The notes under the pieces: generated by a model | What the model was told of the DNA's origin: nothing | The model's database searches: none | Seen by the model: the letters and a program-made list of their open reading frames with translations, nothing else | DNA from: Nitrospira sp. | GTDB lineage: Bacteria; Nitrospirota; Nitrospiria; Nitrospirales; Nitrospiraceae | DNA length: 64,000 bases | NCBI GenBank assembly: GCA_030692565.1 | Contig: JAUYAO010000041.1 | Location: 1 to 64,000 of the forward strand | Direction: 5' to 3' | In this document: piece after piece, positions 11,601 to 29,139 of the stretch | How positions within the stretch are numbered: the stretch's first letter is position 1 | Layout: each line of letters begins with the position of its first letter | Translations under genes and position numbers: made by a program

Positions 11601-13988
11601 ATGAAACAGCAGCTTCCAAGAAGAAATGTTGGGCTACCCTCGCGGATCCTTAATAGGATGTCATGGCTGGCCAATACGAGTTGGCGAGAAGGAGCCCTGC
11701 TACTCGCATTGACGAGCACGCTCGCAGCCTTCTCCTCTAATGTGGAATCAGCCAATCTGGCACTCCACGCAACCTATTCGTTTACCCCGGCCGCCACGTA
11801 TCAGTACACACGAGACCCACGAGATACGAGCAAACTAACAGACGGAGCATTTGCTGATGGGTTTTTTTGGACCTCCAGGAAAGCCACCATGGGGTGGGTG
11901 CTTTCTGGACCGATCTCGGTAGAAATTGATCTCGGCGCCACCTCCGCGATAAACCGTGTCTGTGTCAATACAGCCCGCAGCAGCAAGGCGGACGTCTCCT
12001 TCCCAGAGCGGATCGATGTCTTCTTGAGCAACGACCAACAAACGTACACGTACGTCGGCGATATTCTGAATAACCAGGATCACTCGGACGGTGATTATTT
12101 CGTCAAGAGATTTTGCGGCCAAGCAAATGACGCCGGAAGATACGCGTTAATTGTACTTACACCACGAGGACGCTACGCATTTACTGATGAGATTGAAGTC
12201 ATCGGGAAACGAGATCGCTCTTTAGAGGCCAATACCCTCGTATACCCAATCGCTCGAAGCAACCTTCGTGAGTTTCAATCCAACTTATTTAAGCAAGGAG
12301 TAAGAACTAGAAGTCAAAAATGGATGGCTAGACAACTGCTCGATACAACCACGCAAGCAGGAATTAGGGATTCAGAGATCGAGAAACTTCGCGGCCAATT
12401 AAGAGAATTCATCAGCACGACCCCATCTAAGTTGGATACTCTATCGCCGGCGGCAAATGAGAGAATGCTCTTCAACTTGCATCAGAAGATTATCTCCAGG
12501 CAATTTCCTGACTCATTTCTCTTATGGCATAAAGACCCTTGGACTATTCAGACGCCACTTGATACCCCGACTTCATATATTGCATCTAACACTAGTGCGC
12601 GCATTGATTTGGCGAGAAATGGCTCAGGATCAGAAGCCTATGTGTTAACAAATAGCACCAAAGAGCCAGTTACGCTAGAGGTAAGTACCCGGATAAACGC
12701 TCTGCAAAATCCCGCCATAAGATTCCTGATAAGGGAAGTTCTTCCCATTCTTCTAGCTGACAACACACTTCGAGGGGACCCGCTTATTGAGCTCAGCCAC
12801 GACAAGATCACGGTTCTACCTGGAGAGTCGAAACAACTTTGGATTACAATCTTTGCCGATAATGCAGATCCTGGCCAGTACTCAGGTGAAATACACCTAA
12901 GTCCCATAACTAAACAGAATTCTTCTCAATCCATAACTCTTGACATTCGAGTATGGCCCTTTAGCCTTCCAACAAAACCGAATGTTCATACCGTAACTTG
13001 GTCATACTTGAATTGGCGGCCGATTGCAGACATGCCTGCGGAAGCAGTTCGGGACCTGACCGAGCACCACACCAACACGTTCGTACTTCATCCTTCTGAA
13101 GTTCCCTGGCCTAAGTTCACAACCCTAGGTGGCACTTCGTTTACAGTAAACTTCGACAAATTCGACCGTTTTGTTCAGTATCATAAGGACGTGCATAAAT
13201 CACTCCTGTTCTTTATGCACTTTAATGATGATAGGATTAGATCGTTTGATGGCAATGTAATTTTCATGAGCCTAGAGTGGAAAGCTGTTTTTCTGAAATG
13301 GCTGAATATGTGGGTGTCTCATGCCACTGCTCTTGGGCTTACCCTCGATCAGTTTGCTCTCTATCCTATCGACGAGCCAAGAACGGTGGCCGAGGCATCA
13401 ATCCTGATCGACACAGCTACCCTGATCAAAACAGTAGACCCGAGGCTTCAGGTCTACACCACCATTGGGACTCTCTCGAGTGGCGACCTACTTCGTGCAG
13501 TGAAATTTGTCGATATATTTCAAGTGCTGACATCCGACCTTCCCAATCCTAGCGTAGATATTTTGCGAGGCCTAGGCAAATCAGTTTGGACCTATACTGC
13601 CGAAGGGGGAGGGAAAGCAGCTAGCCCCATAAGCTTCTATCGCATGCAAGCATGGAAGGCGTTTCAAAGGGGATTAGACGGAATCGGGTTCTGGGCTTAC
13701 GCCGACACCGGTCGCTCAGGCAGCGGGTGGGATGATTTAGATGATCTAAGACCAGACTTCGCTGTGATCTATGAGAGCAAGCATATGATCGTATCAAGCA
13801 AAAGATGGGAAGCTTGGCGTGAGGGGGTTGAGGACTTCGAATTATTGATTAAAGCAAAAGCGAGCATCCGGAGCCAAGCAGAGAAATCAATGCTCACGGA
13901 GATAGTTGACGCAACGATTGCAAATCCGGATGATCATCCAAGATTTCAATCCAATCGACGATGGCTTCTTCAGATTGCATCGAGATGA
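11601..13988 (+). CDS. Secreted DUF4091 glycoside-hydrolase-like protein with F5/8-C-like N-domain
   Basis: About 795 residues from the ATG at 11601 (AGAAGG 12 bases upstream). A TTG at 11568 overlapping the previous stop, or an ATG at 11658 next to the hydrophobic signal segment (ALLLALTSTLAAFSS), are alternatives. After the export signal, residues about 50-180 look like a discoidin/F5-8-type carbohydrate-binding domain. The C-terminal half (about 450-780) matches the DUF4091 barrel, with ALYPIDEP near residue 586 supplying conserved acidic residues and GFWAYADTG later. Inferred role: an exported enzyme or binding protein acting on the locus polysaccharide. Confidence 0.65.
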   Translation: MKQQLPRRNVGLPSRILNRMSWLANTSWREGALLLALTSTLAAFSSNVESANLALHATYSFTPAATYQYTRDPRDTSKLTDGAFADGFFWTSRKATMGWVLSGPISVEIDLGATSAINRVCVNTARSSKADVSFPERIDVFLSNDQQTYTYVGDILNNQDHSDGDYFVKRFCGQANDAGRYALIVLTPRGRYAFTDEIEVIGKRDRSLEANTLVYPIARSNLREFQSNLFKQGVRTRSQKWMARQLLDTTTQAGIRDSEIEKLRGQLREFISTTPSKLDTLSPAANERMLFNLHQKIISRQFPDSFLLWHKDPWTIQTPLDTPTSYIASNTSARIDLARNGSGSEAYVLTNSTKEPVTLEVSTRINALQNPAIRFLIREVLPILLADNTLRGDPLIELSHDKITVLPGESKQLWITIFADNADPGQYSGEIHLSPITKQNSSQSITLDIRVWPFSLPTKPNVHTVTWSYLNWRPIADMPAEAVRDLTEHHTNTFVLHPSEVPWPKFTTLGGTSFTVNFDKFDRFVQYHKDVHKSLLFFMHFNDDRIRSFDGNVIFMSLEWKAVFLKWLNMWVSHATALGLTLDQFALYPIDEPRTVAEASILIDTATLIKTVDPRLQVYTTIGTLSSGDLLRAVKFVDIFQVLTSDLPNPSVDILRGLGKSVWTYTAEGGGKAASPISFYRMQAWKAFQRGLDGIGFWAYADTGRSGSGWDDLDDLRPDFAVIYESKHMIVSSKRWEAWREGVEDFELLIKAKASIRSQAEKSMLTEIVDATIANPDDHPRFQSNRRWLLQIASR

Positions 13989-15919: not shown

Positions 15920-17179
15920 ATGCGTATTCTCTTTCTCTCCCATTACTTTCCCCCTGAAGTGAACGCGCCGGCCTCCCGCACCTACGAACACTGCAAACAG
16001 TGGATCAAAGACGGGCACGAAGTCACGGTCGTGACCTGCGCGCCGAACCATCCGCGCGGAACGGTCTATGAAGGCTATCGTAACAAATTCTTCCAGCGGG
16101 AAAACCGTGACGGCATTCAGGTCGTGCGGGTCTGGACCTACGTCACCGCCAATGAAGGATTTCTAAAGCGGACGCTGAATTATCTTTCGTATATGGCAGC
16201 CGCGATATTCGTGGCGCCGTTTCTCTCACAGTGTGACGTCGTGCTCTCCACATCTCCCCAGTTTTTTAACGGACTGGCCGGCTATCTCGTCAGCCGCATG
16301 AAGCGAGCCCCCTGGATCCTGGAGATTCGCGACCTTTGGCCTGAATCGATCGTCGCCGTAGGCGCCATCACCAATCGCCCGATCATCCGCATCCTTGAGG
16401 GCCTTGAACTCTTTGCCTATCGCAAAGCGGATCACCTGGTCGTCGTCACCGACGCCTTTAAGACCCACATGCTGACCAGAGGAATCCCGGAGCAGAAGGT
16501 GACGGTAGTCAAGAATGGCGTGGACTTTTCCCTCTACAAAAAGCCGTTGGCAGATTCCTCAGAACTGTCCCGGCAATTGAAGCTTGAGGGAAAGTTCGTC
16601 GCCTCATACGTCGGCACTCATGGCATGGCGCATCATCTGGAAACGGTCTTGGAGGCCGCCCGGATATTGGCCGAATGGAAGGACATCGTATTTCTGCTCG
16701 TCGGAGACGGCGCCGAACGAAGCCGCCTTCTTGCCATGCGGGATGAGATGAAGCTTCAGAATGTGGTCATGCTCGATCAGCAGCCGAAAGACCGCATGCC
16801 GGACTTGTGGTCTCTGTCGAGTGTGAGCCTTGTCCTCCTCAAGAGATCGGACCTCTTCAAAACGGTCATTCCCTCCAAGATCTTCGAAAGCATGGCGATG
16901 GAGAAGCCCATCATCCTGGGAGTGGAAGGGGAGAGCGCCGAACTCGTGATGTCGTCAGGCGGGGGAGTCTGTATCGAGCCGGAGAATGGGAAAGACCTCG
17001 CGGACCAGGTATTGAAATTGTCTCAAGATCCCACTCGATGTCGCGCCCTCGGCACGAGCGGCAGGCACTATGTGCTGGCGCACTTCGATCGCCAGGTCCT
17101 GGCAAGGAAGCTGACCGATGTCATGCAGCAAGTCGTGAGTGCAACCGGGAAGGTGCCCAGTCAGCAGCCGAACGCCTGA
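15920..17179 (+). CDS. Glycosyltransferase family 4, WcaI/WbuB-like (intact copy)
   Basis: 419 residues; ATG with AAGGA six bases upstream. Starts RILFLSHYFPPEVNAPASR, typical of WcaI/WbuB-type GT4 proteins; WILEIRDLWPESI is the family marker in the acceptor domain; the donor domain contains PSKIFESMAMEKPIIL near residue 318. A hydrophobic pair at residues 90-130 may contact the membrane. It is expected to transfer a sugar to the lipid-linked precursor. The last 567 bases (16583-17149) are repeated at 17808-18374, and the last part again at 20566. The final about ten codons differ from both other copies, so the C-terminus may have been replaced at the rearrangement point. Confidence 0.85.
   Translation: MRILFLSHYFPPEVNAPASRTYEHCKQWIKDGHEVTVVTCAPNHPRGTVYEGYRNKFFQRENRDGIQVVRVWTYVTANEGFLKRTLNYLSYMAAAIFVAPFLSQCDVVLSTSPQFFNGLAGYLVSRMKRAPWILEIRDLWPESIVAVGAITNRPIIRILEGLELFAYRKADHLVVVTDAFKTHMLTRGIPEQKVTVVKNGVDFSLYKKPLADSSELSRQLKLEGKFVASYVGTHGMAHHLETVLEAARILAEWKDIVFLLVGDGAERSRLLAMRDEMKLQNVVMLDQQPKDRMPDLWSLSSVSLVLLKRSDLFKTVIPSKIFESMAMEKPIILGVEGESAELVMSSGGGVCIEPENGKDLADQVLKLSQDPTRCRALGTSGRHYVLAHFDRQVLARKLTDVMQQVVSATGKVPSQQPNA
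16583..17149 (+). repeat. Copy 1 of the triplicated glycosyltransferase 3' segment
   Basis: This 567-base stretch lies inside the intact glycosyltransferase gene and aligns without gaps to 17808-18374 (constant offset 1225). Homology stops after GCAACCGGG; copies 2 and 3 continue with GGCTGAGCGG whereas this copy turns into unrelated sequence. Confidence 0.9.
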
Positions 17180-17200
17180 CAGCGAAGATGAGGCAAGAGG

Positions 17201-17677
17201 TCACACTGAAAGTCCGAGGCGCTGCTCAATAAGCTGAACCCGTCGTTCCAGAATCTCAACGCGTTGCTGGATTTGCTCATACGAGAGTTGGAGCAGGGCT
17301 CTTGTTTCGCGAGCCTGCATTTCGACTTCCCTGCGAATATCTGCAAGACGTTCACTGTGGAGCTGCCCCGCTTCGGCCACAAGCTGCACATCGTGCCGGA
17401 GCCCTTCGGCAAGAACACCCATGTGGCGCTTGGTCTCTTCAAGACGGTCACCAAGGCGGAATTCGATCTGGCCCATTTCCAGGCGCAGGCCACCGGCGAT
17501 CCCGATCATCTCCTGGCGCAGCCCGTCAGTGTTCTCCGCCATCTCCTGGCGCAGCCCGTCGGCGATCCCGGCCATTTCCAGGCGCAGGCCACCGGTGTTC
17601 TTCGCCATTTCCAGGCGCAGGCCATCCGTGGCCGCTGTGACGATGCGTTCAATCTGCGAGAGCGATTCAGCATCCAT
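17201..17677 (-). CDS. Coiled-coil protein with five 11-residue repeats, unknown function
   Basis: 158 residues on the minus strand from the ATG at 17677, which has GGAG nine bases upstream; an ATG at 17692 is a longer option. Residues 19-73 are five hendecads of the type GLR(L/Q)EM followed by alternating AKNTG/AGIAD-like endings, so the DNA repeats in units of 33 and 66 bases. Hendecads form gently right-handed coiled coils. The rest is charged helix (QIEFRLGDRLEETKRH, EILERRVQLIEQRL) without membrane segments. I do not recognise the family. It lies in the 658 bases that separate glycosyltransferase copy 1 from copy 2, in the opposite orientation, with its own promoter-like sequence. Confidence 0.65.
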   Translation of the reverse strand: MDAESLSQIERIVTAATDGLRLEMAKNTGGLRLEMAGIADGLRQEMAENTDGLRQEMIGIAGGLRLEMGQIEFRLGDRLEETKRHMGVLAEGLRHDVQLVAEAGQLHSERLADIRREVEMQARETRALLQLSYEQIQQRVEILERRVQLIEQRLGLSV

Positions 17678-17795: not shown

Positions 17796-17807
17796 TTTCT
17801 TCTGGGG

Positions 17808-18404
17808 CTGGAGGGGAAGTTTGTGGCCTCCTGCGTCGGCACCCATGGCATGGCGCACCATCTGGAAACGGTACTGGAAGCGGCTCGGGAACTGGCCGAA
17901 TGGAAGCACATCGTATTTCTGCTCGTTGGAGACGGCGCCGAACGAAACCGCCTTCTTGCCATGCGGGATGAGATGAAGCTTCAGAATGTGGTCATGCTTG
18001 ATCAGCAGCCGAAAGAGCGCATGCCGGACTTGTGGTCTCTGTCGAGTGTGAGCCTTGTCCTCCTCAAGAGATCGGACCTCTTCAAAACTGTCATTCCCTC
18101 CAAGATCTTCGAGAGCATGGCGATGGAGAAGCCCATTATCCTGGGAGTGGAAGGGGAGAGCGCCGAACTCGTGATGTCGTCAGGCGGGGGAGTCTGTATC
18201 GAGCCGGAGAATGGGAAAGACCTCGCGGACCAGGTATTGAAACTGTCTCAAGATCCCGCGCGATGTCGCGCACTCGGCACGAGCGGCAGACACTATGTGC
18301 TGGCGCATTTCGACCGCCAGGTCCTGGCGAGGAAGCTGACCGATGTCATGCAGCAAGTCGTGAGCGCAACCGGGGCTGAGCGGAAAAGGACGTTGGAGGT
18401 TTGA
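17808..18404 (+). pseudogene. Truncated glycosyltransferase copy 2 (C-terminal half only)
   Basis: The frame encodes the donor-binding half of the glycosyltransferase at 15920-17179 with few substitutions (E-L-A-E-W-K-H for I-L-A-E-W-K-D, for example) and ends GAERKRTLEV at a TGA. There is no N-terminal acceptor domain and no start codon with a ribosome site; the first in-frame start is GTG at 17823. A half enzyme of this fold would not be expected to transfer sugar. The intact reading frame with mainly conservative changes suggests either a recent duplication or retained selection. Bases 18150-18488 are the reference against which copy 3 and its tail can be aligned. Confidence 0.8.
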
Positions 18405-18407
18405 GGT

Positions 18408-20558: not shown

Positions 20559-20572
20559 CCCCTTCGAAGGGG
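20559..20572. repeat. Perfect palindrome CCCCTTCGAAGGGG at the copy 3 junction
   Basis: This 14-base palindrome spans the point (20566) where homology of copy 3 to copy 2 begins; GAAGGGGAGAG is common to both. A related hairpin with the same CCCTGCCCCCT lead is at 24473-24499. Confidence 0.7.
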
Positions 20573-20820
20573 AGAGCGCCGAACTCGTGATGTCGTCAGG
20601 CGGGGGAGTCTGCATCGAACCGGAGAACGGGAAAGACCTCGCGGACCAGGTATTGAAATTGTCTCAAGATCCCGCTCGATGTCGCGCACTCGGCGCGAGC
20701 GGCAGGCGCTATGTGCTGGCGCACGTCGATCGCCAGGTCCTGGCGAGGAAGCTGACCGATGTCATGCAGCGAGTCGTGAGCGCAACCGGGGCTGAGCGGA
20801 AGAGGACGTTGGAGGTTTGA
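20566..20820 (+). pseudogene. Truncated glycosyltransferase copy 3 (last about 80 codons)
   Basis: Aligns without gaps to 18150-18404 (offset 2416) and encodes the last part of the donor domain (SSGGGVCIEPENGKDLADQV and following) ending GAERKRTLEV. Copies 2 and 3 share this C-terminal end, which copy 1 lacks. It has no start signal and is far too short to be an enzyme. Homology continues two bases past the stop (to 20822), is interrupted for 864 bases by the MntA/HepT segment, and resumes at 21687. Confidence 0.85.
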
Positions 20821-20880
20821 GGGGAGAGGGTGGAGGGATCGTTTCGGGTTTCACGTTTCCGGTTTCATGTTGGAGGCAGT

Positions 20881-20980
20881 GACCTCTGACCTCAAACTTC
20901 TCACGTCTCAGCGTTCAACCTTAACCTCGACCTGAACCTTCCGACCGGCCTCAGGCCTCTCGCCTTGGACCTCAAGCCGC
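20881..20980 (+). repeat. CCTCAACCTC-type text-like repeat
   Basis: A run of short variants on CCTGACCTC, CCTTAACCTC, GACCTGAACC and CCTCAGGCCTC. A second block is at 21046-21102. Together they fill most of the sequence between copy 3 and mntA. The same vocabulary recurs at 18393-18406, 23608-23635, 25524-25615, 26673-26735, 27400-27453, 32231-32303 and 37547-37580. Confidence 0.6.
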
Positions 20981-21115
20981 CAGAGCTTGACCCCACAGGC
21001 GCTTTCAACTAGGCTCCACCCTATGAAGAAGGCTGAATTCTAGTCCGGCCTCAAGCCTCCTCAGGCCTCGAACCACAAACCTCCAGCCTCAAGCCGCCGG
21101 AGGCGAGAAGAGTCG

Positions 21116-22058: not shown

Positions 22059-22715
22059 ATGATGAATTACCCCAAGAGACTGACTATCCTGGCCGTAATC
22101 GCAGCGAGCCTCCTTACGTTTTCATTACCCAGCGCACCGGCCTCGGCCGCGCTTCTACAGTTCTCATTCGAGGGTGCCGTAAACTCTGTCGCTGGTGCAC
22201 TGCAACCGACGCTTGATAATACCCACAAGCTCTCCGGATTCTTTACTATTGAGTCCACGACTTCCGGAACGCCGGCGGGAGCAAACACTACGCAATACAC
22301 CAACATCTTTAAGAACATGACCCTCAGCTTAGGCCCGCTCGGAGGGCCGGCTGTCATGACCGCCGCACTCGGGAGCGCAGATAATTCTTTAACCGTGAAG
22401 ACCACGGGTGGTCCGCTTGTACAGTACACGGCTCTCGGTCCCTTAACCGGATCATCGGTGAATTCCCGCTTCCCCGTGAGCTTTGAATTCGACGGGAATG
22501 CAAACACGTCCTCACCCCCGGGAATCGGATCCTTTGTGTCCAACCACTGGCGCATCGTATTCAGTGGGAACGGAAATCCAAAGGTGATCGGGACATTGAC
22601 CTCCCTCACGGCGGTCCCCTTGCCGGCGGCGGTCGTGCTCTTTGGAGCAGGTTTCGTAGCCTTGGCAGGCCTTGGAGCGGGGAGTCGTCGCCAGCGAACG
22701 AGCCAATCGGTCTAA
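22059..22715 (+). CDS. VPLPA-CTERM sorting-domain secreted protein 1
   Basis: 218 residues; two adjacent ATG codons (22059, 22062) with AAGGAG upstream. An N-terminal signal peptide ends near PASAA (residue about 30). The mature part is a Ser/Thr/Gly-rich beta-type domain of unknown function. The C-terminus has the three-part sorting signal: VPLPAAVVLFGAG, a hydrophobic segment, and a basic tail (GSRRQRTSQSV). Proteins of this class are exported by Sec and processed by an exosortase; the matching enzyme is encoded at 25797. It shares layout and the NHWRIVF-type motif before the signal with the proteins at 22764 and 24763, so they are paralogues. No terminator separates it from the next gene. 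Confidence 0.85.
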   Translation: MMNYPKRLTILAVIAASLLTFSLPSAPASAALLQFSFEGAVNSVAGALQPTLDNTHKLSGFFTIESTTSGTPAGANTTQYTNIFKNMTLSLGPLGGPAVMTAALGSADNSLTVKTTGGPLVQYTALGPLTGSSVNSRFPVSFEFDGNANTSSPPGIGSFVSNHWRIVFSGNGNPKVIGTLTSLTAVPLPAAVVLFGAGFVALAGLGAGSRRQRTSQSV

Positions 22716-22763: not shown

Positions 22764-23423
22764 ATGAATAACATCCACTCATCGTTCCGTCAGCTTCTTT
22801 CCATCGCCGGCCTGCTGGCCTTGACGGGGATTGCGGCTGCTCCGGCCACGGCCGCGCCCGTCATATTCAATTTCACCGGCGATGTGGATCGCGTAGCACC
22901 CAGATTGGCAGCGCAATTTAATACGGGCCAAACGATGTCCGGCACCATGACCGTCAACCCGTCAGGCCCGATTAGCCACCCCGGCACTGGCATCTATACG
23001 ATCGAAACTTTCAGCCTGAATATCGGCGGGTATACCGCGACAATGGGACCTTCCGGCCAAGTAGAAATCAGAGACAGGTTAAACGGCCTAGACAGACTGA
23101 ACGTGACAGTAAACGCTCCTATTGGTTCAACTGTGAATCAACTGGCCCCAAGCATATTTGAGATTCAACTTCGCGGGCCTGCAAGTGTGTTTGGCAGCAA
23201 TGCACTGCCAACGCCGACGACCTCCCCGAGCATCTCTGCTTTCAGCAACTTCAATCAGTGGCGCCTGGTATTTGGGCCTGGGGGAAGAGTAGTTGCGGGA
23301 ACAGTACTGGCCATGACAGCAGTGCCGTTGCCGGCGGCGGTCGTTTTGTTCGGAGCCGGGCTGGTGGCCTTGGCCGGTCTCGGAGCGGGGAGTTGGCGGC
23401 AACGGAAGAACAGCATCGCCTAA
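22764..23423 (+). CDS. VPLPA-CTERM sorting-domain secreted protein 2
   Basis: 219 residues; ATG with GAGGAGG upstream, 48 bases after the stop of protein 1, so probably one transcript. It has a signal peptide (LLSIAGLLALTGIAAAPATA), a middle with IFNFTGDVDRV and NQWRLVFGPGG, and the C-terminal VPLPAAVVLFGAG segment with a hydrophobic stretch and GSWRQRKNSIA tail. The role is presumably extracellular or surface-attached after exosortase processing; the domain function is unknown. A perfect hairpin terminator follows 25 bases downstream. Confidence 0.85.
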   Translation: MNNIHSSFRQLLSIAGLLALTGIAAAPATAAPVIFNFTGDVDRVAPRLAAQFNTGQTMSGTMTVNPSGPISHPGTGIYTIETFSLNIGGYTATMGPSGQVEIRDRLNGLDRLNVTVNAPIGSTVNQLAPSIFEIQLRGPASVFGSNALPTPTTSPSISAFSNFNQWRLVFGPGGRVVAGTVLAMTAVPLPAAVVLFGAGLVALAGLGAGSWRQRKNSIA

Positions 23424-23482: not shown

Positions 23483-23496
23483 ACGCCCCCTCATCT

Positions 23497-23604
23497 CACC
23501 GCACATGTGCATATCTATTGACGATTTGCGCACATTCCATGCCGGTTGTGGCCTGATTCAGGATTGAACCTTCCTCGTAGGCTTCTGCACACAACGGTTC
23601 CAAG
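23497..23604 (+). repeat. 108-base direct repeat, copy A (upstream of vapBC module 2)
   Basis: Ungapped match to 24540-24647 with roughly ten mismatches. It begins CACCGCACATGTGCATA and ends ACACAACGGTTCCAAG, and contains the perfect 10-base palindrome GCACATGTGC. Copies A and B bracket the second vapBC pair in direct orientation. Confidence 0.85.
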
Positions 23605-23688: not shown

Positions 23689-24102
23689 TCAGGATGTGCG
23701 GAGATACTTGGTCCAATCGAGAGTCTTCAAGGGAAGAGTCGGTTTCATTGCCTCGAAGTCCGTATCGCAGTGAATCAACGTCACCTCGTGTTTCACCGCG
23801 ATGGTCGCGATCAGACAATCTGCTGCTGAAGGAGACACGCCGTGTCTTCTGAGACGCCCGGCCAGGTCCCACGCGGTCTCCCACCACTCCTGGTTGAAAG
23901 GGAGCCGTGGCACCGGCGCAAACCACTGGAGGAGAGTAGCGGGCTGCTGGGACTTGACCAGCCCTGTCATCAGTTCAAGAAGGATCCACTCCGTGACGGC
24001 CGTCTGCCCCTCGACGATCAACGGTTTGAGTCGGGCCTGGATCTCGGCATTCCCCGCCGGACGAAGGGCATGGATCCAGATGGAGCTGTCAACGAGATAC
24101 AT
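23689..24102 (-). CDS. vapC: PIN-domain toxin VapC (second module)
   Basis: 137 residues. PIN features: MYLVDSSIWIHALR with D5, ITEWILLELMTGL-type segment with the conserved glutamate, SAADCLIATIAV with the aspartate, and HCDTDFEAM with the last acidic residues. It is a predicted metal-dependent ribonuclease, different in sequence from the VapC at 19610. The start overlaps the antitoxin gene by 14 bases. The module is oriented against the flanking VPLPA-CTERM genes and lies between 108-base direct repeats, which suggests it entered an existing intergenic region. Confidence 0.85.
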   Translation of the reverse strand: MYLVDSSIWIHALRPAGNAEIQARLKPLIVEGQTAVTEWILLELMTGLVKSQQPATLLQWFAPVPRLPFNQEWWETAWDLAGRLRRHGVSPSAADCLIATIAVKHEVTLIHCDTDFEAMKPTLPLKTLDWTKYLRTS

Positions 24103-24310
24103 GGGGCGTTCGTTTATGCCGCTGGGAGCGGAGTTGGCCCGGCGTCAGGTCGAGCGGAATGGTGCCCAGCGCATTGGCTAACTTCTCCAGCTGGCTGCGC
24201 TGAATGACCGTGCGAAGACTCGCCTCCACCGTGCCTTTGATCGTATCTGTGCCTAGCATCTTCTGTGCTTCACGTAAGAGTTGCTGATCAATCTCAACCG
24301 TGGTCTTCAT
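24089..24310 (-). CDS. vapB: Ribbon-helix-helix-type antitoxin VapB (second module)
   Basis: 73 residues from the ATG at 24310, which has GGAGGGAC a few bases upstream. The start MKTTVEIDQQLLREAQKMLG followed by TDTIKGTVEASLRTVI is the short strand plus two helices of VapB antitoxins that bind DNA as ribbon-helix-helix dimers; the tail IPLDLTPGQLRSQRHKR would wrap the toxin. It precedes and overlaps vapC. A promoter with an inverted repeat over the -35 box lies directly upstream, consistent with autorepression. Confidence 0.8.
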   Translation of the reverse strand: MKTTVEIDQQLLREAQKMLGTDTIKGTVEASLRTVIQRSQLEKLANALGTIPLDLTPGQLRSQRHKRTPHVSR

Positions 24311-24342
24311 ATCGACGTCCCTCCGTTCCCAGGCGATGACTG

Positions 24343-24394
24343 CCCATACATTAACCTGCACCTATATGGGTGTCAATTGAAGAAATACCCATAT
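24343..24394 (-). promoter_or_regulatory. vapBC promoter with overlapping inverted-repeat operator
   Basis: On the minus strand TTGACA (24376-24371) and TAATGT (24353-24348) are 17 bases apart, 38 bases from the vapB start. The arms ATATGGGT (24364-24371) and ACCCATAT (24387-24394) form a perfect 8-base inverted repeat covering the -35 side; a further CCCATAC half site is at 24344-24350 over the -10. This layout fits repression by the VapBC complex. Confidence 0.6.
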
Positions 24395-24499: not shown

Positions 24500-24539
24500 A
24501 ATCGTTGAGATTCGCAGACAGAGACGCGTGAGAGGATAT

Positions 24540-24647
24540 CACCGCACATGTGCATAGTCATTGTCGATCTGCGTACATTCCGTGCCGGTTGTGGCCTGAT
24601 TCAGAATTGCACCCTCCTCGTAGGCTTCTGCACACAACGGTTCCAAG
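24540..24647 (+). repeat. 108-base direct repeat, copy B (downstream of vapBC module 2)
   Basis: Pairs with 23497-23604. It lies 116 bases before the third VPLPA-CTERM gene and may include its upstream control region; the GCACATGTGC palindrome is conserved in both copies. Confidence 0.85.
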
Positions 24648-24762
24648 CGGCTCATTTTCACCCTCTGCATTTCCAATACGTTAGCTCCTTCCAGCGATGG
24701 CCTGGCTCTTGCTGAACCCCCTGGCTGTGCGCATGTACCACCTCTACAAGGAGTCTGACTTT

Positions 24763-25443
24763 ATGCAGAAGAACAAACAGTCGACGATCAAAGGGCTTTT
24801 CCTGCCGGCGATCGCGCTGTGTTCCCTGGTCCTCTCAGGGAACGTGGCTCAAGCAGCGCTGGTGAGCTATTCCTTCACAGGAGGAGTCAGCAGCATCAGC
24901 GGAGCGCTGCTCTCGCCCACGATGAACCTGACTTCACCCGTGACCGGATCGTTCCAATTCGACAATGCCACGGGCGGGGGAAGCGGCAATTATCCCGGCG
25001 CCGTGAAAGCTATGACTGTCGCCATCGGCGGCTATAGCTCGTCGTTCGCCCCCGGGGCCAATGCTGTCACCATTTCTCAGAGCGGCAATCTGGGCGGCGG
25101 ACTCACCGGAGACCGTTGGAAGCTCGTGACTGCGGCGATGGGCCTGCCGGTGAACGGCTATACCCCGCTCAGCTTCGATCTCCATCTGGATCGGGAAGGC
25201 GGCGGGTTGTTCGGCAATACCACCCTGCAAAATCCGCCGAGTTTGAGCTCCCTCACGGCCACCAGATGGCGCCTCATCTTTGAGAACGCCGACGGGCACA
25301 TCGTGACGGTGCGCGGTGCGATCAACAGCCTGACCGCCGTGCCGTTGCCGGCCGCTGTGTTCCTCTTTGGAGCGGGGCTCATCTCGCTGGTCGGTCTCGG
25401 TGCAGGAGGCTTAAGAAACCTCCGCGGCACTCAGCAGGCCTAG
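24763..25443 (+). CDS. VPLPA-CTERM sorting-domain secreted protein 3
   Basis: 226 residues from the ATG at 24763, which has AAGGAG nine bases upstream; in-frame starts from 24697 lack a ribosome site. Signal peptide through NVAQAA; the mature region begins LVSYSFTGGVSSISGALLSP, close to LLQFSFEGAVNSVAGAL of protein 1, confirming paralogy. ATRWRLIFENADG precedes the C-terminal VPLPAAVFLFGAG signal, hydrophobic helix and short basic tail. It is a predicted exported exosortase substrate; the function of its domain is not known. A hairpin terminator lies 25 bases after the stop. Confidence 0.85.
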   Translation: MQKNKQSTIKGLFLPAIALCSLVLSGNVAQAALVSYSFTGGVSSISGALLSPTMNLTSPVTGSFQFDNATGGGSGNYPGAVKAMTVAIGGYSSSFAPGANAVTISQSGNLGGGLTGDRWKLVTAAMGLPVNGYTPLSFDLHLDREGGGLFGNTTLQNPPSLSSLTATRWRLIFENADGHIVTVRGAINSLTAVPLPAAVFLFGAGLISLVGLGAGGLRNLRGTQQA

Positions 25444-25467
25444 GCTCACAGCCATGAGCACAGATAT

Positions 25468-25508
25468 GGGCTTGGCGCCCCGTCACAGGGATACGCCAAG
25501 CCCTTTGT
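25468..25508 (+). terminator. Terminator after VPLPA-CTERM protein 3
   Basis: A 10-base stem GGGCTTGGCG (25468-25477)/CGCCAAGCCC (25494-25503) with a 16-base loop is followed by TTTGTC. It separates the substrate gene from the exosortase operon. Confidence 0.65.
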
Positions 25509-25698
25509 CTATCCGAAGCAGGCTCGAGGTTGAAGGCGGGGAATGGCTTGAGGCAAAGATGGTCGAGCCGGATTGGGCAAGTCATTCCAACCTTCAGCCT
25601 CAACTCTTCAGCTATGCAGGCGAATGGTTGCATTGAATCACTGCTGATCGTTGCTACAACCCATGACCGTGAGGCTACGTAAATGCCCCATACAATTC

Positions 25699-25741
25699 TA
25701 GTAAGAAGGTTGCCTTACTACGGTCAATCTGGTATCCAGAT
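25699..25741 (+). promoter_or_regulatory. Inverted repeats upstream of the exosortase operon
   Basis: In the 353-base gap 25444-25796, besides the terminator and text-like repeats (25524-25615), two dyads are visible: TAGTAAG (25699-25705)/CTTACTA (25714-25720), and a perfect ATCTGG-TAT-CCAGAT (25727-25741). They lie 55-100 bases before the start of the operon and are candidate regulator sites. No clear -35/-10 pair was identified. Confidence 0.35.
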
Positions 25742-25796
25742 ACATATCCTCTACGCGGTCACTCTGCTGTAGATCCATCACATCGGGCGCATCGTT

Positions 25797-27389
25797 ATGA
25801 GCAGCAAGCTTTTACTAGGCTTCAGCGGAGTTCTTGCCACAGTTTCACTGGGCTACCTCTACTTTGAGAGCCTGGTGTTTCTGTTCAGCCATTGGATCGG
25901 CAGCGACGACTACAGCCACGGCATGTTCGTTCCTTTCATCAGCCTCTTTCTCATCTGGCAATCGCGGCACCGCATCGCTGCCGCGGGCATCGCCGGTTCG
26001 TGGTGGGGCATGGCCATTGTCATCGCGGGGCTCTTCCTCTATCTGGCCGGGGAACTCGCCACGCTCTATGTGCTCCAGCACTTCTCCCTCTGGATTGTGC
26101 TCGTGGGACTCGTGATCGGCGGGATCGGCCTTCAGGCCAGTCGTACGATCGCCTTTCCTCTTGGCTATTTGCTGACCAGTATTCCGCTGCCCACGTTCTT
26201 ATACGCCGGTCTGTCGAGCCAACTGCAGTTGTGGTCATCGGCGCTCGGGGTCGGCTGTCTGCAACTCGTCGGCGTCACGGCTTTCCGTGAAGGGAATGTG
26301 ATCGATCTGGGCCCGGTGCAGCTCCAAGTCGTGGAGGCCTGCAGCGGAATCCGCTACCTGCTCCCCCTGACCTCGCTGGCCTTGCTCTGCGCCTATCTGT
26401 TCAAGGACCGGATGTGGAAACGCGTCATCCTGGTCCTCTCGTCGATCCCGATCTCGATCCTGGTGAACGGGTTTCGCATCGGCATGATCGGCGTCCTCGT
26501 CGAATGGTACGGGCAGGAGGCATCCGAAGGCTTCGCCCATCTCTTCGAGGGCTGGGTCCTGTTCATGGCGAGTCTTGGCCTGCTGATTCTGGAAATGTGG
26601 ATCCTGACCAGAATCGGATCGGATGGTCGATCCGTATCTCTTCAAGACCGATTCACGTGGAGTGCAGACACGGTTGAGGTTAGAGGTATGAGGTCTGAGG
26701 CAACTGCCTCTAACCTTCAGCCTTATACCTCCAACACTGTATTGCTCGGACCCGCCTACCTCTTCAGCGTGGCGCTCTTGATTCCCGCGGCATTCGCCTC
26801 CTCCTTCCTCGGCCAGAGAGTAGAAGTTCCGCCTGACAGAGCGTTGTTCGTCGATTTCCCTATGCACATCGAAGAATGGACCGGCACATCCTTGTCGCTG
26901 GAGCAGCAGTACATCGACGCGCTGCGGTTCGACGACTACGTGTTGGCGGAATATCGCCATGGCGGCAGCCAGCCGGTGACGTTCTACTCGGCCTACTACC
27001 GATCGCAACGAAAAGGGCAATCGGCCCATTCTCCGCAGAGCTGCCTCCCCGGCGGCGGATGGGAAATCTCCTCGATCACAAACTTGGCGTTCGCTCCGGT
27101 GCCCGGCATGGCGCAGCAGCTCCATGCCAACCGCGCCGTCATCGAGAAGGGCAATCAGAAACAAATCGTCCTGTACTGGTTTAAACAGCGGGACCGCATT
27201 CTCACCAGCGAGTACCTGGTGAAATTCTATTTATTCTGGGATGCCCTCCTGCGCGCGCGAACCGACGGAGCGCTGGTGCGTATCGCCTCTCTTGTCGGGC
27301 CGGGCGAAACCGAAGAGCTCGTCGATCAACGGATGCGGCAGTTCGTATCAGCCCTGCAACCCGAGTTGAACCGGTATGTGCCTGACTAA
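25797..27389 (+). CDS. xrtD: Exosortase (VPLPA-CTERM type) fused to an EpsI domain
   Basis: 530 residues. The N-terminal about 280 residues are an eight-helix exosortase; the catalytic triad is visible as C182 (EACSGIRYL), R227 (NGFRIGM) and H248 (GFAHLFEGW). Family knowledge: exosortases are inner-membrane transpeptidase-like proteases that cleave C-terminal sorting signals; the subtype fused to EpsI and found with VPLPA-CTERM proteins is called exosortase D. Residues about 325-520 are EpsI-like (DUF3485), with SCLPGGGWEI. Between the domains, residues 293-313 are encoded by a 63-base palindromic repeat. Three likely substrates are encoded just upstream. This gene heads the operon. The subtype call is by recognition of context and motif. 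Confidence 0.85.
   Translation: MSSKLLLGFSGVLATVSLGYLYFESLVFLFSHWIGSDDYSHGMFVPFISLFLIWQSRHRIAAAGIAGSWWGMAIVIAGLFLYLAGELATLYVLQHFSLWIVLVGLVIGGIGLQASRTIAFPLGYLLTSIPLPTFLYAGLSSQLQLWSSALGVGCLQLVGVTAFREGNVIDLGPVQLQVVEACSGIRYLLPLTSLALLCAYLFKDRMWKRVILVLSSIPISILVNGFRIGMIGVLVEWYGQEASEGFAHLFEGWVLFMASLGLLILEMWILTRIGSDGRSVSLQDRFTWSADTVEVRGMRSEATASNLQPYTSNTVLLGPAYLFSVALLIPAAFASSFLGQRVEVPPDRALFVDFPMHIEEWTGTSLSLEQQYIDALRFDDYVLAEYRHGGSQPVTFYSAYYRSQRKGQSAHSPQSCLPGGGWEISSITNLAFAPVPGMAQQLHANRAVIEKGNQKQIVLYWFKQRDRILTSEYLVKFYLFWDALLRARTDGALVRIASLVGPGETEELVDQRMRQFVSALQPELNRYVPD
26673..26735 (+). repeat. 63-base imperfect palindrome inside the exosortase gene
   Basis: Left arm starts GTTGAGGTTAGAGGTATGAGG; right arm ends CCTTATACCTCCAAC, and the centre is GAGGCAACTGCCTC. 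It is exactly 21 codons long, so the frame is kept, and it lies in the linker between the exosortase and EpsI domains. Related repeats occur outside genes nearby, e.g. 27400-27453. Confidence 0.75.
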
Positions 27390-27399
27390 GGCAGGGCAA

Positions 27400-27453
27400 G
27401 AGGCTAGAGGTGAGAGGCGCGAGGTAGTTGCCTCGGACCTATAACCTCACGCG
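27400..27453 (+). repeat. Palindromic GAGGTT-type repeat behind the exosortase gene
   Basis: Contains GAGGCTAGAGGTGAGAGG and the centre GAGGTAGTTGCCTC followed by ACCTATAACCTCACGCG, a diverged relative of 26673-26735. It lies in the 115-base gap between the exosortase gene and the WecA-like gene. Confidence 0.65.
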
Positions 27454-27504
27454 TGTTAGCTATGACGGTTGACGAATGACCATTGACGATTTACGAGTTC
27501 ACCG

Positions 27505-29139
27505 ATGACGAGCGAACTATTTTTCAGCTTCATGACCTCGCTGCTCATTTGCATGGCGCTGATCCCGCCGTTGCGGATGCTGGCCGAGCGGTTTCATTTC
27601 ATGGATCAACCGGGCGAACGCAAGGTACATCACCATCCGGTCCCCAGAGTGGGGGGCATTGCCTTCGCGCTCGGGGCCTGCGCCAGCATTGCCTGGTGGG
27701 CGCCGAAGGATATCACCACACTGTCGGTGCTCCTGGGCGGATTGATCATCCTGGGATTCGGCGTCTGGGACGACCGGGTGAATCTGGGCTACCGCGTTAA
27801 ACTGGCAGGACAAATCCTCGCCGCCCTCGCGGTCATCCTCATCGGAGGCATCCGTTTCGAGAGCCTGCCGTTCCTGCTCGACGCGGATCTCACGCTGTGG
27901 GTCAGCATCCCCGTCACGATTCTCTTCCTTGCGGCGGTCTCAAACGCCGTCAATCTGACCGACGGCCTCGACGGATTGGCCGGGGGACTGTCTTTCCTCA
28001 CGCTCTGCGGAATCGCGTATCTTGCACATCTCTCGAACGACTCGCTGGTGCTCTTGCTGGCCGTTCCCTTCATGGGAGGGCTTCTGGGCTTCCTGCGATA
28101 CAACACCTATCCGGCCAGAATTTTCATGGGAGACGGCGGCAGCCAACTGCTCGGATTCATGATGGGAGTCCTGGCGATTCTTCTGACCGACTCGGCCAGG
28201 GGCCCATTCAGCGCTTCTCTCTCGCTCTTTCTGCTGGGCTTGCCGTTTCTGGATACTCTGGGGGTCTCGGCGCAACGGTTGTCCGAAGGACGATCGCCGT
28301 TCGTCGGAGACCGCACCCATATTCACCATAAACTCATGGCGATGGGCCTGCGCCACTACGAAGCCGTCACGGCCATTTATGGCATCCAGGGGCTCATGGT
28401 GGCATCGGCCTATTTCCTGCGCTGGCAATCGGATATCTTGATCATCCCCCTGTACCTCGGACTGGCCGGCATCGTCCTGGCTCTGTTTATCGCCGCAGGC
28501 CGGGGCTTCTTTGCCAAACCGGCTCCGGAGGGGGCGCTGGTCCGTTCCGAGCAATGGCTCGAAGAAGTCCTGAATCGTCACTGGCTCCATGATTTGCCCA
28601 TTCGCTTCCTGGCCATCGTAGTCCCTCTGTTTCTGATTGCGACGGTGTTTCTTCCGGCCGAGGTCCCGCACGATATCGGCTACCTGTCGACCGGACTGTT
28701 TCTCCTCGTCCTGCTCGGGCTCGCATTCATTCCCCGGCTGGCGCCCTATTTTGTGCGCGGAGGGCTCTATCTCGGCAGCACCTGCCTGCTGTATGTCAGC
28801 GACGCCTCCTGGTTGAAGGCGGTGTTTCCTATTCCCGCGACCTATCATCTCCTGTTCGGCGCCATGGCGATCATGGTCCTGCTGACCATGCGCTTCGACA
28901 GCCAAAGCCGGTTCCAGACCACTCCTCTGGACTACCTGATGGTCTGCCTCGCCGTCGTTTTCCCGTTCCTTCCGGAACTCCATGCGGACATCTCGTCACT
29001 CGGTCTGTTCGCAGGTAAACTGATCGTGCTGTTTTTTTCCTTTGAGTTGCTCCTCCACGCATTTTCTGATCGAGTCAAGCAACTCGGGCTGGTCTCCCTC
29101 TGGGTACTGTTCGGCTTGGGGATCAAAATGTGGCTGTGA
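27505..29139 (+). CDS. WecA-like undecaprenyl-phosphate sugar-1-phosphate transferase
   Basis: 544 residues. Residues 1 to about 330 match the MraY/WecA family: DQPGERKVHHHPVPRVGG near the start, GFGVWDDRVNLGYRVKLAGQ, NAVNLTDGLDGLAGGL (catalytic aspartates), RIFMGDGGSQLLGF, and GRSPFVGDRTHIHHKL with the histidine loop. The family attaches a GlcNAc- or related sugar-1-phosphate to undecaprenyl phosphate on the cytoplasmic side, the first step of polymer synthesis. The C-terminal about 200 residues add several more membrane helices, making it longer than WecA (about 360 residues). It is second in the operon, so it probably initiates the exopolysaccharide exported by the genes behind it. Confidence 0.85.
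   Translation: MTSELFFSFMTSLLICMALIPPLRMLAERFHFMDQPGERKVHHHPVPRVGGIAFALGACASIAWWAPKDITTLSVLLGGLIILGFGVWDDRVNLGYRVKLAGQILAALAVILIGGIRFESLPFLLDADLTLWVSIPVTILFLAAVSNAVNLTDGLDGLAGGLSFLTLCGIAYLAHLSNDSLVLLLAVPFMGGLLGFLRYNTYPARIFMGDGGSQLLGFMMGVLAILLTDSARGPFSASLSLFLLGLPFLDTLGVSAQRLSEGRSPFVGDRTHIHHKLMAMGLRHYEAVTAIYGIQGLMVASAYFLRWQSDILIIPLYLGLAGIVLALFIAAGRGFFAKPAPEGALVRSEQWLEEVLNRHWLHDLPIRFLAIVVPLFLIATVFLPAEVPHDIGYLSTGLFLLVLLGLAFIPRLAPYFVRGGLYLGSTCLLYVSDASWLKAVFPIPATYHLLFGAMAIMVLLTMRFDSQSRFQTTPLDYLMVCLAVVFPFLPELHADISSLGLFAGKLIVLFFSFELLLHAFSDRVKQLGLVSLWVLFGLGIKMWL

Follow-up and report, generated by a model that had tools for sequence, protein, structure and literature searches.

To our knowledge, palindromic repeats lying in frame within genes are known mainly from Rickettsia. 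REP/REPIN sequences (TnpA-REP), which going by the features summarised for them are likewise short dispersed palindromes, are marked by a high copy number, a fixed consensus and a terminal tetranucleotide tag, and are rarely found in coding DNA. A row of REP numbers is given for Nitrospira moscoviensis in one part of PMC12306157. As described in a passage of a review (PMC10969869), the Rickettsia palindromic elements (RPE; Ogata 2000, 2002) measure about 150 bp and form ten sequence families, each with an open reading frame for a conserved peptide; they occur both between genes and in frame within genes, at positions tolerated by the protein.

Repeats with a 7-nt period have also been described. 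In Geobacter metallireducens, four to five tandem heptads were interpreted as regulatory sites with a consensus; one family lies within as well as between genes and the class MTYCTGA is drawn looping onto the other strand, whereas in-frame turnover in protein linkers is absent from the features described in the part of the paper dealing with these repeats (PMC2700814). The TAACTGA heptamers of marine Beggiatoaceae are 7-nt tandem repeats, mostly intergenic with few in ORFs, but they consist, in the features given, of one exact heptamer in direct repeats with a single inverted case, mostly just upstream of start codons (PMC4679880). The Xanthomonas/Nostoc heptamers GGGAATC and GGGGA(C/T)T are also dispersed and mostly intergenic, some being intragenic; they differ, according to the sections concerned, in having one G-rich theme per organism and in being studied as G-quadruplexes (PMC4692102). 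Inverted repeats within translated genes are reported for the mitochondria of Nematomorpha, where they are perfect, reach 284 bp and have arms that encode conserved protein regions, no variable linker being among the traits described (PMC6649704). The tandem repeats of Borgs give rise to disordered regions in proteins while preserving the frame, but the in-ORF unit lengths reported are divisible by three (PMC9879509), as opposed to the 7 nt seen in Nitrospira.

The window, i.e. the whole 64,000-nt stretch of Nitrospira sp. DNA analysed here, carries elements that may be described as two arrays of 7-nt units, inverted around a short loop and lying mostly between genes. In contrast to RPE, these heptad palindromes combine a 7-nt period with inverted arms, occur in many themes, differ in length within a single gene and hit the same linker again. 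The arrays are not classed as RPE, since they fail the sequence definition given in the published features: instead of a conserved family of elements, about 150 bp long and encoding a conserved peptide, varying themes and linker lengths were found. By analogy, they may nevertheless work as RPE do, as repeat DNA that is neutral in intergenic positions and tolerated where it lies in frame within a gene; RPE are the closest precedent. No title on such heptad arrays in Nitrospira was found among the literature matches listed, and a search for Nitrospira, exosortase and repeat yielded nothing on arrays in xrtD, going by the openings of the abstracts. The reading that we consider probable is that the stretch within xrtD is an in-frame copy of dispersed heptad palindromes, tolerated in a linker, locally copied and contracted. 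Nitrospira would thus arrive at an RPE-like result by way of another kind of repeat, and offers many related genomes in which to follow it.

Host gene and in-frame array

The array and its host gene comprise the following features.

25797-27389, + strand: exosortase D (XrtD)-EpsI fusion gene (xrtD), host of the array; 530 aa; TIGR04152, PF09721, PF11984
26673-26735, + strand: in-frame heptad palindrome, codons 293-313; from sequence, fold, inverted repeat and open frame
26676-26703, + strand: 5' arm, four GAGGNNN heptads; from sequence and lag-7 score
26707-26734, + strand: 3' arm, four CCTCNNN/CCTTNNN heptads; from sequence and the inverted repeat of 26677-26686 with 26707-26716

The profile search assigned the product to TIGR04152 with 542.8 bits (cut-off 400), and C182, R227 and H248, which we take to be the Cys, Arg and His residues with the roles familiar in this family, are invariant in all 21 rows compared, as expected of an XrtD. 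As PF09721 covers residues 17-270 and PF11984 residues 325-527, codons 293-313 fall between the two domains and the array sits in the linker. Internal stops are absent from xrtD in all the matches listed in the search of Nitrospira genomes. Confidence in the AlphaFold model is low (mean pLDDT 56.6, residues 270-342 below 50), so that disorder of the linker is suggested at most; no helix or strand is assigned in it between residues 287 and 318, which would fit a passenger peptide. Just upstream of xrtD, three genes (22059-22715, 22764-23423 and 24697-25443) share a C-terminal repeat and end in what we take to be a VPLPA-type tail, a name that also stands in the TIGR04152 title; they are presumably sorting substrates of XrtD.

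A palindrome of 63 bases and exactly 21 codons between the exosortase and EpsI domains had been proposed in the first-pass annotation; its coordinates and frame are correct, the 63 bases beginning on a codon boundary of the ORF (876 = 3 x 292 after the start), and the palindrome is imperfect, arm pieces of 15 and 10 nt being 87% and 100% complementary. The sequence is VEVRGMRSEATASNLQPYTSN. Its 5' arm reads GAGGTTA, GAGGTAT, GAGGTCT and GAGGCAA, followed by a short apex, and its 3' arm CCTCTAA, CCTTCAG, CCTTATA and CCTCCAA. Periodicity was measured by a lag-7 score, the number of matches at lag 7 within 21 nt, which is blind to theme; the window linker scores 16 of 21, as compared to 11 or less at lags 4, 5, 8, 10, 11 and 13.

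When the RNA of 26663-26745 was folded, an energy of −37.8 kcal/mol was obtained against a mean of −20.5 for shuffled sequences (z −5.96; none of 200 shuffles as good), with the GAGG/CCTC blocks paired and two-base internal loops between them. Such a stable fold would suit a functional mRNA or DNA element (a pause, an attenuator or a protein-binding site) between the exosortase and EpsI parts, with the peptide as a by-product, and heptamer sites have been proposed as regulatory in the accounts of the Geobacter and Beggiatoaceae repeats cited above. Rfam, however, gave no match for 25400-27600, and with the comparative data given below we regard this explanation as very unlikely.

Reading frame and stop triplets

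Across the window linker the only open forward frame is the one in use, and the same holds for 12 of the 13 xrtD linkers with a lag-7 score of at least 13. A 7-nt unit shifts the frame at each repeat, and a stop triplet contained in it therefore comes into frame every third unit. In the arrays of xrtD and of a second, herA-like gene (see below), 72 of the 86 out-of-frame units retain the stop triplet, as compared to 0 of 29 in-frame units, which carry TCA, TTA, CGA, AGA and similar triplets at the expected position; the array at locus L219 was entered under two stop triplets, and the 29 in-frame units come from related rows and are not 29 independent events. In the window insert, this position reads TGA, AGA (in frame), TGA and TGA in successive units. 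With an open frame, in-frame stops are necessarily absent; the informative point is that the array continues through a unit that differs exactly at the in-frame stop position. Successive 7-nt units pass through every frame in turn, and heptad arrays therefore allow selection on the reading frame to be followed from one unit to the next. The stretch is presumably translated, and the resulting peptide may well have no function of its own.

xrtD linkers of relatives

Matches to xrtD were found in 58 of 79 Nitrospira genomes searched, to which 22 loci from a separate named collection were added (21 Nitrospira/Nitrospirae/Nitrospiraceae records and one deltaproteobacterial; 15 of the 22 are duplicate contigs of the genome search). 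A tree was built without the linker from 53 of the 72 aligned rows; the 19 omitted were 16 exact duplicates of retained rows, two that were partial or aligned badly (L051, with a CCTC-rich linker, and L081) and the distant deltaproteobacterial one (L063). The rows are related, and the counts that follow are not numbers of independent events.

One clade shows a linker of exactly 45 residues, free of arrays, in 34 of 35 rows; in the 35th (G025) the linker has 74 residues and an array. In the remaining 18 rows, the distant L082 included, the linker ranges from 36 to 109 residues, and 10 of these rows show GAGG/CCTC heptad doublets. Doublets are thus present in 11 of 53 non-redundant linkers, which span 44-109 codons, and require at least seven changes on the linker-free tree; their absence from the other 42 rows speaks against a functional hairpin. 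A lag-7 score of at least 15 was recorded for 11 of 53 linkers and for none of 461 control segments from the same genes; at a threshold of 13, the numbers are 13 of 53 and 9 of 461. Linkers of paralogous XrtD copies (35-43 residues) had no GAGG/CCTC doublet at the 20 loci read, and a hot spot in the linker is thus not common to all copies of the family.

In 71 aligned loci, all 21 residues of the window array occur in the window's own record alone and both its ends are shared by the sister genome G068 alone. The residues are thus absent or different in relatives, as the first-pass annotation had predicted, and the conservation in distant homologues that would have spoken against it was not found among these loci.

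Growth of a low-complexity Ser/Pro/Thr-rich segment by 7-nt (or 21-nt) units through plain tandem slippage within the linker, unrelated to any intergenic copies, would fit some of these rows: the linkers of L014 and L048 are Ser-rich and also have 6-nt CCTC spacings, and that of G040, one of the 11 scoring at least 15, has another theme, a GCCATCG heptad repeat with all three frames open. Slippage would yield neither inverted arms nor the inverted stretches shared with the intergenic flanks of G014 (see below), and a coding-driven origin is unlikely since the 7-nt length of the unit is not divisible by three. We consider slippage of this kind distinctly improbable as compared to the copying of dispersed palindromes.

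History of the window copy

As compared to the window genome (G000), the sister genome G068 has the same array ends and 129 nt more, placed exactly at the apex between the innermost GAGGC and CCTC. The window linker counts 51 codons, against 40 (G023), 44 (G002 and G039) and 45 (the array-free clade) in the same columns, so that it has gained 6 to 11 codons net over these relatives. On these two grounds, a single clean 63-bp insertion was rejected. In alignments judged against 200 heptad-shuffles, the G068 linker scored 40.5 with that of G009 (shuffles up to 24) and 44 with that of G025 (up to 23), and the long form is therefore probably older. The 21-codon form of the window is more likely an in-frame contraction of an older, longer coding array than one 63-bp insertion, a polarity based on alignments and not on a dated ancestor. 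The earlier view of a repeat that became coding without breaking the gene is thus borne out as regards the open frame, and fails as regards a 63-base insert of 21 codons acquired in a single event. Two other linker comparisons were no better than heptad-shuffles, namely G015 with G009 (18; shuffles up to 20) and the window with G014 (15; up to 19). No target-site duplication or clean empty site was seen at the array on inspection by eye.

Arrays around xrtD

Related copies in nearby intergenic DNA had also been noted in the first pass and were located at the first three of the following places; the fourth is an array of another theme (no strand is assigned to any).

27400-27447: heptad palindrome directly after the xrtD stop codon; fold z −3.45
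25526-25601: imperfect GAGG/CCTC hairpin upstream of xrtD, weaker; fold z −3.18
20812-21093: intergenic GAGG/CCTC heptad cluster, of which one stretch, 20848-20907, aligns with the insert when inverted
27463-27499: heptad array of the TGACGNT theme between xrtD and the next gene; from the lag-7 scan

A search of the 4.17-Mb genome for three GAGG spaced 7 nt apart gave 11 partly overlapping hits, as compared to one for the reversed-pattern control, and six of the 11 fall inside the 64-kb window. The core of the 27400-27447 element, GAGGTAGTTGCCTCGGACCT, is identical downstream of xrtD in G014; this 20-nt core is shared with the linker insert as well, in inverted orientation and with two differences. 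Aligned as a whole, the insert and the 27400-27447 element scored 20 (shuffles up to 23), or 21 when inverted (up to 26). In G014, a third species, intergenic elements on both sides of xrtD align in inverted orientation with linker copies: the one just after xrtD with the window insert (score 41, against 29.5 for the best of 500 heptad-shuffles) and the one before xrtD with 78 nt of the G068 linker (64.5 against 34 for the best of 500 shuffles); low-complexity heptads inflate these scores, for which the heptad-shuffle controls correct in part. Flanking GAGG/CCTC doublets accompany 7 of 13 linkers with a score of at least 13 and 2 of 39 others (Fisher p 0.0004, uncorrected for relatedness). In G002 and G039, no GAGG/CCTC heptad doublet was seen upstream of xrtD, within its linker or downstream, and when the similarity of linker arrays to their own and to other flanks was compared by 9-mers, the difference was not significant (permutation p 0.11).

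These alignments suggest that arrays before, inside and after xrtD may exchange sequence in inverted orientation. Copying would be local, since the upstream, linker and downstream arrays share inverted sequence across species, and could proceed between the inverted arrays by replication template switching or gene conversion; we infer both the mechanism and the direction of such copying. In-frame expansion and contraction at the hairpin apex would then follow, of which the 63-nt form of the window is most likely a contraction. Arrays may be tolerated because the linker would need little beyond length and solubility, only stop-free versions in the right frame surviving. Should local copying between the inverted repeats hold true, the xrtD locus would be a natural test case of replication template switching.

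Other repeats were observed in this part of the window. The gene ending at 17179 has parts that recur two and three times (16582-17181, 17807-18406 and 20566-20822; 89-95% identical), with GAGG heptads at the ends of two of these repeats. A 112-nt direct repeat (23493-23604 and 24536-24647, 90% identical) flanks a small gene pair at 23689-24361 on the − strand, which by eye looks like a PIN toxin with its antitoxin, and 33-nt tandem repeats at 17464-17630 form four overlapping register copies within two overlapping ORFs.

Lag-7 arrays as a class

A scan of 484 kb of the window genome recorded 30 imperfect tandem arrays at lag 7 and 0-9 at each of 14 other lags; the sample is not random, its contigs having been picked for known GAGG hits, and the GAGG theme may therefore be raised, other themes not. 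By an ORF heuristic, 24 of the 30 lie outside ORFs, where just 10.8% of the sample is found; the other six are one in the xrtD linker, two arms in the herA-like gene, one overlapping the start of the herA-like ORF, and two others. A complementary arm within 130 nt accompanies 20 of 30 arrays as compared to 0.3% of random places. A weaker excess was observed in G064 (12 at lag 7 in 400 kb, 0-10 at other lags, lag 14 being highest), sampled at even steps save for the last stretch, which was picked for its xrtD. Other genera of the family likewise showed a weaker excess, with 9 lag-7 arrays in 185 kb and 0-8 at other lags. Lag-7 arrays are scarce in G001 and G040, with two and one, respectively, in 200 kb of each, and none was found in 157 kb from ten genomes of other families. 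Themes in the window genome and G064 are diverse (GAGGNNN, TGACGNT, GTGACNN, ACTGAGG and others). The exact triplet (GTGAAAC)x3 is present in 26 of 295 genomes of the phylum, 25 of the 26 belonging to the window's family according to the kinship column. At L232 (17626-17706), in another genus of the family, an AT-rich heptad palindrome (TTTTGAG ... CTCAAAA) has the same geometry.

The palindromic form and the dispersed intergenic copies would also be expected of a mobile REP- or MITE-like element, brought in from elsewhere by an enzyme such as a trans-acting Y1 transposase (RAYT/TnpA-REP), and Y1_Tnp genes occur in 9 of 10 genomes tested, with five matches in the window genome. Against this, the array-bearing G014 (90% complete) gave no Y1_Tnp match, the many themes are unrelated and have the 7-nt period as their sole common trait, and the exact apex core is not dispersed: it occurs at two places in the window genome and three in 79 genomes, confined to the xrtD locus of two genomes, unlike the one high-copy consensus per genome of REP/REPIN. 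Insertion of a mobile element is thus unlikely. A high-copy REP family was rejected, as the core with up to two mismatches occurs at 13 places in 10 of 79 genomes as compared to 15 for the reversed control.

Beyond the local copying favoured at xrtD, the heptad palindromes could tentatively be seen as a class defined by geometry (7-nt period and inverted arms) and not by sequence, which a dedicated process of the Nitrospiraceae makes and recopies, shifts in theme over time, and uses repeatedly to seed and replace protein linkers; we hold this possible and somewhat doubtful. If true, it would provide a natural series of de novo coding sequence, with stops removed only in the frame that is read.

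A second host gene

An in-frame array was also found in a second gene of the window genome.

G000:C22:90104-92635: HerA-like ATPase gene with an in-frame TGACG-type heptad palindrome; Pfam matches barely above cut-off

This array lies between two conserved parts of the protein, in a hinge, and one genome thus holds heptad arrays both between genes and in frame in two unrelated genes, as RPE do. Among 30 loci sampled, the window genome's included, out of 68 genomes with a match, the hinge has a lag-7 score of at least 13 in 25 and of 11 or less in the other five; control segments of equal length from the same ORFs gave row means of 7.6 to 9.0, and individual segments in three rows reached 13, 15 and 21. 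Of the 25 array-bearing hinges, 21 have no open forward frame other than the one in use.

The theme changes by species (GTCAAGC, GAGG, GTGAAAC, ACTGAGG). At least 15 changes of theme and at least four of presence were counted on a quickly built 30-row tree with many weak forks and theme labels set by hand. So free a change of theme argues further against a functional hairpin, as do hinge copies whose arms differ in theme and could hardly pair. In the sister genome G068, the hinge is array-free though the rest of the protein is 97% identical.

The arrays may thus arrive repeatedly in the flexible XrtD-EpsI linker and the HerA-like ATPase hinge, and repeat DNA seems to keep supplying new, tolerated protein sequence in Nitrospira. 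Similarity of the hinge arrays to their own flanks is modest (p 0.016) and driven mainly by three rows. At L118, TGACG-type heptad arrays (12621-12650 and 13226-13258) adjoin the herA-like gene that itself has such an array in its hinge.
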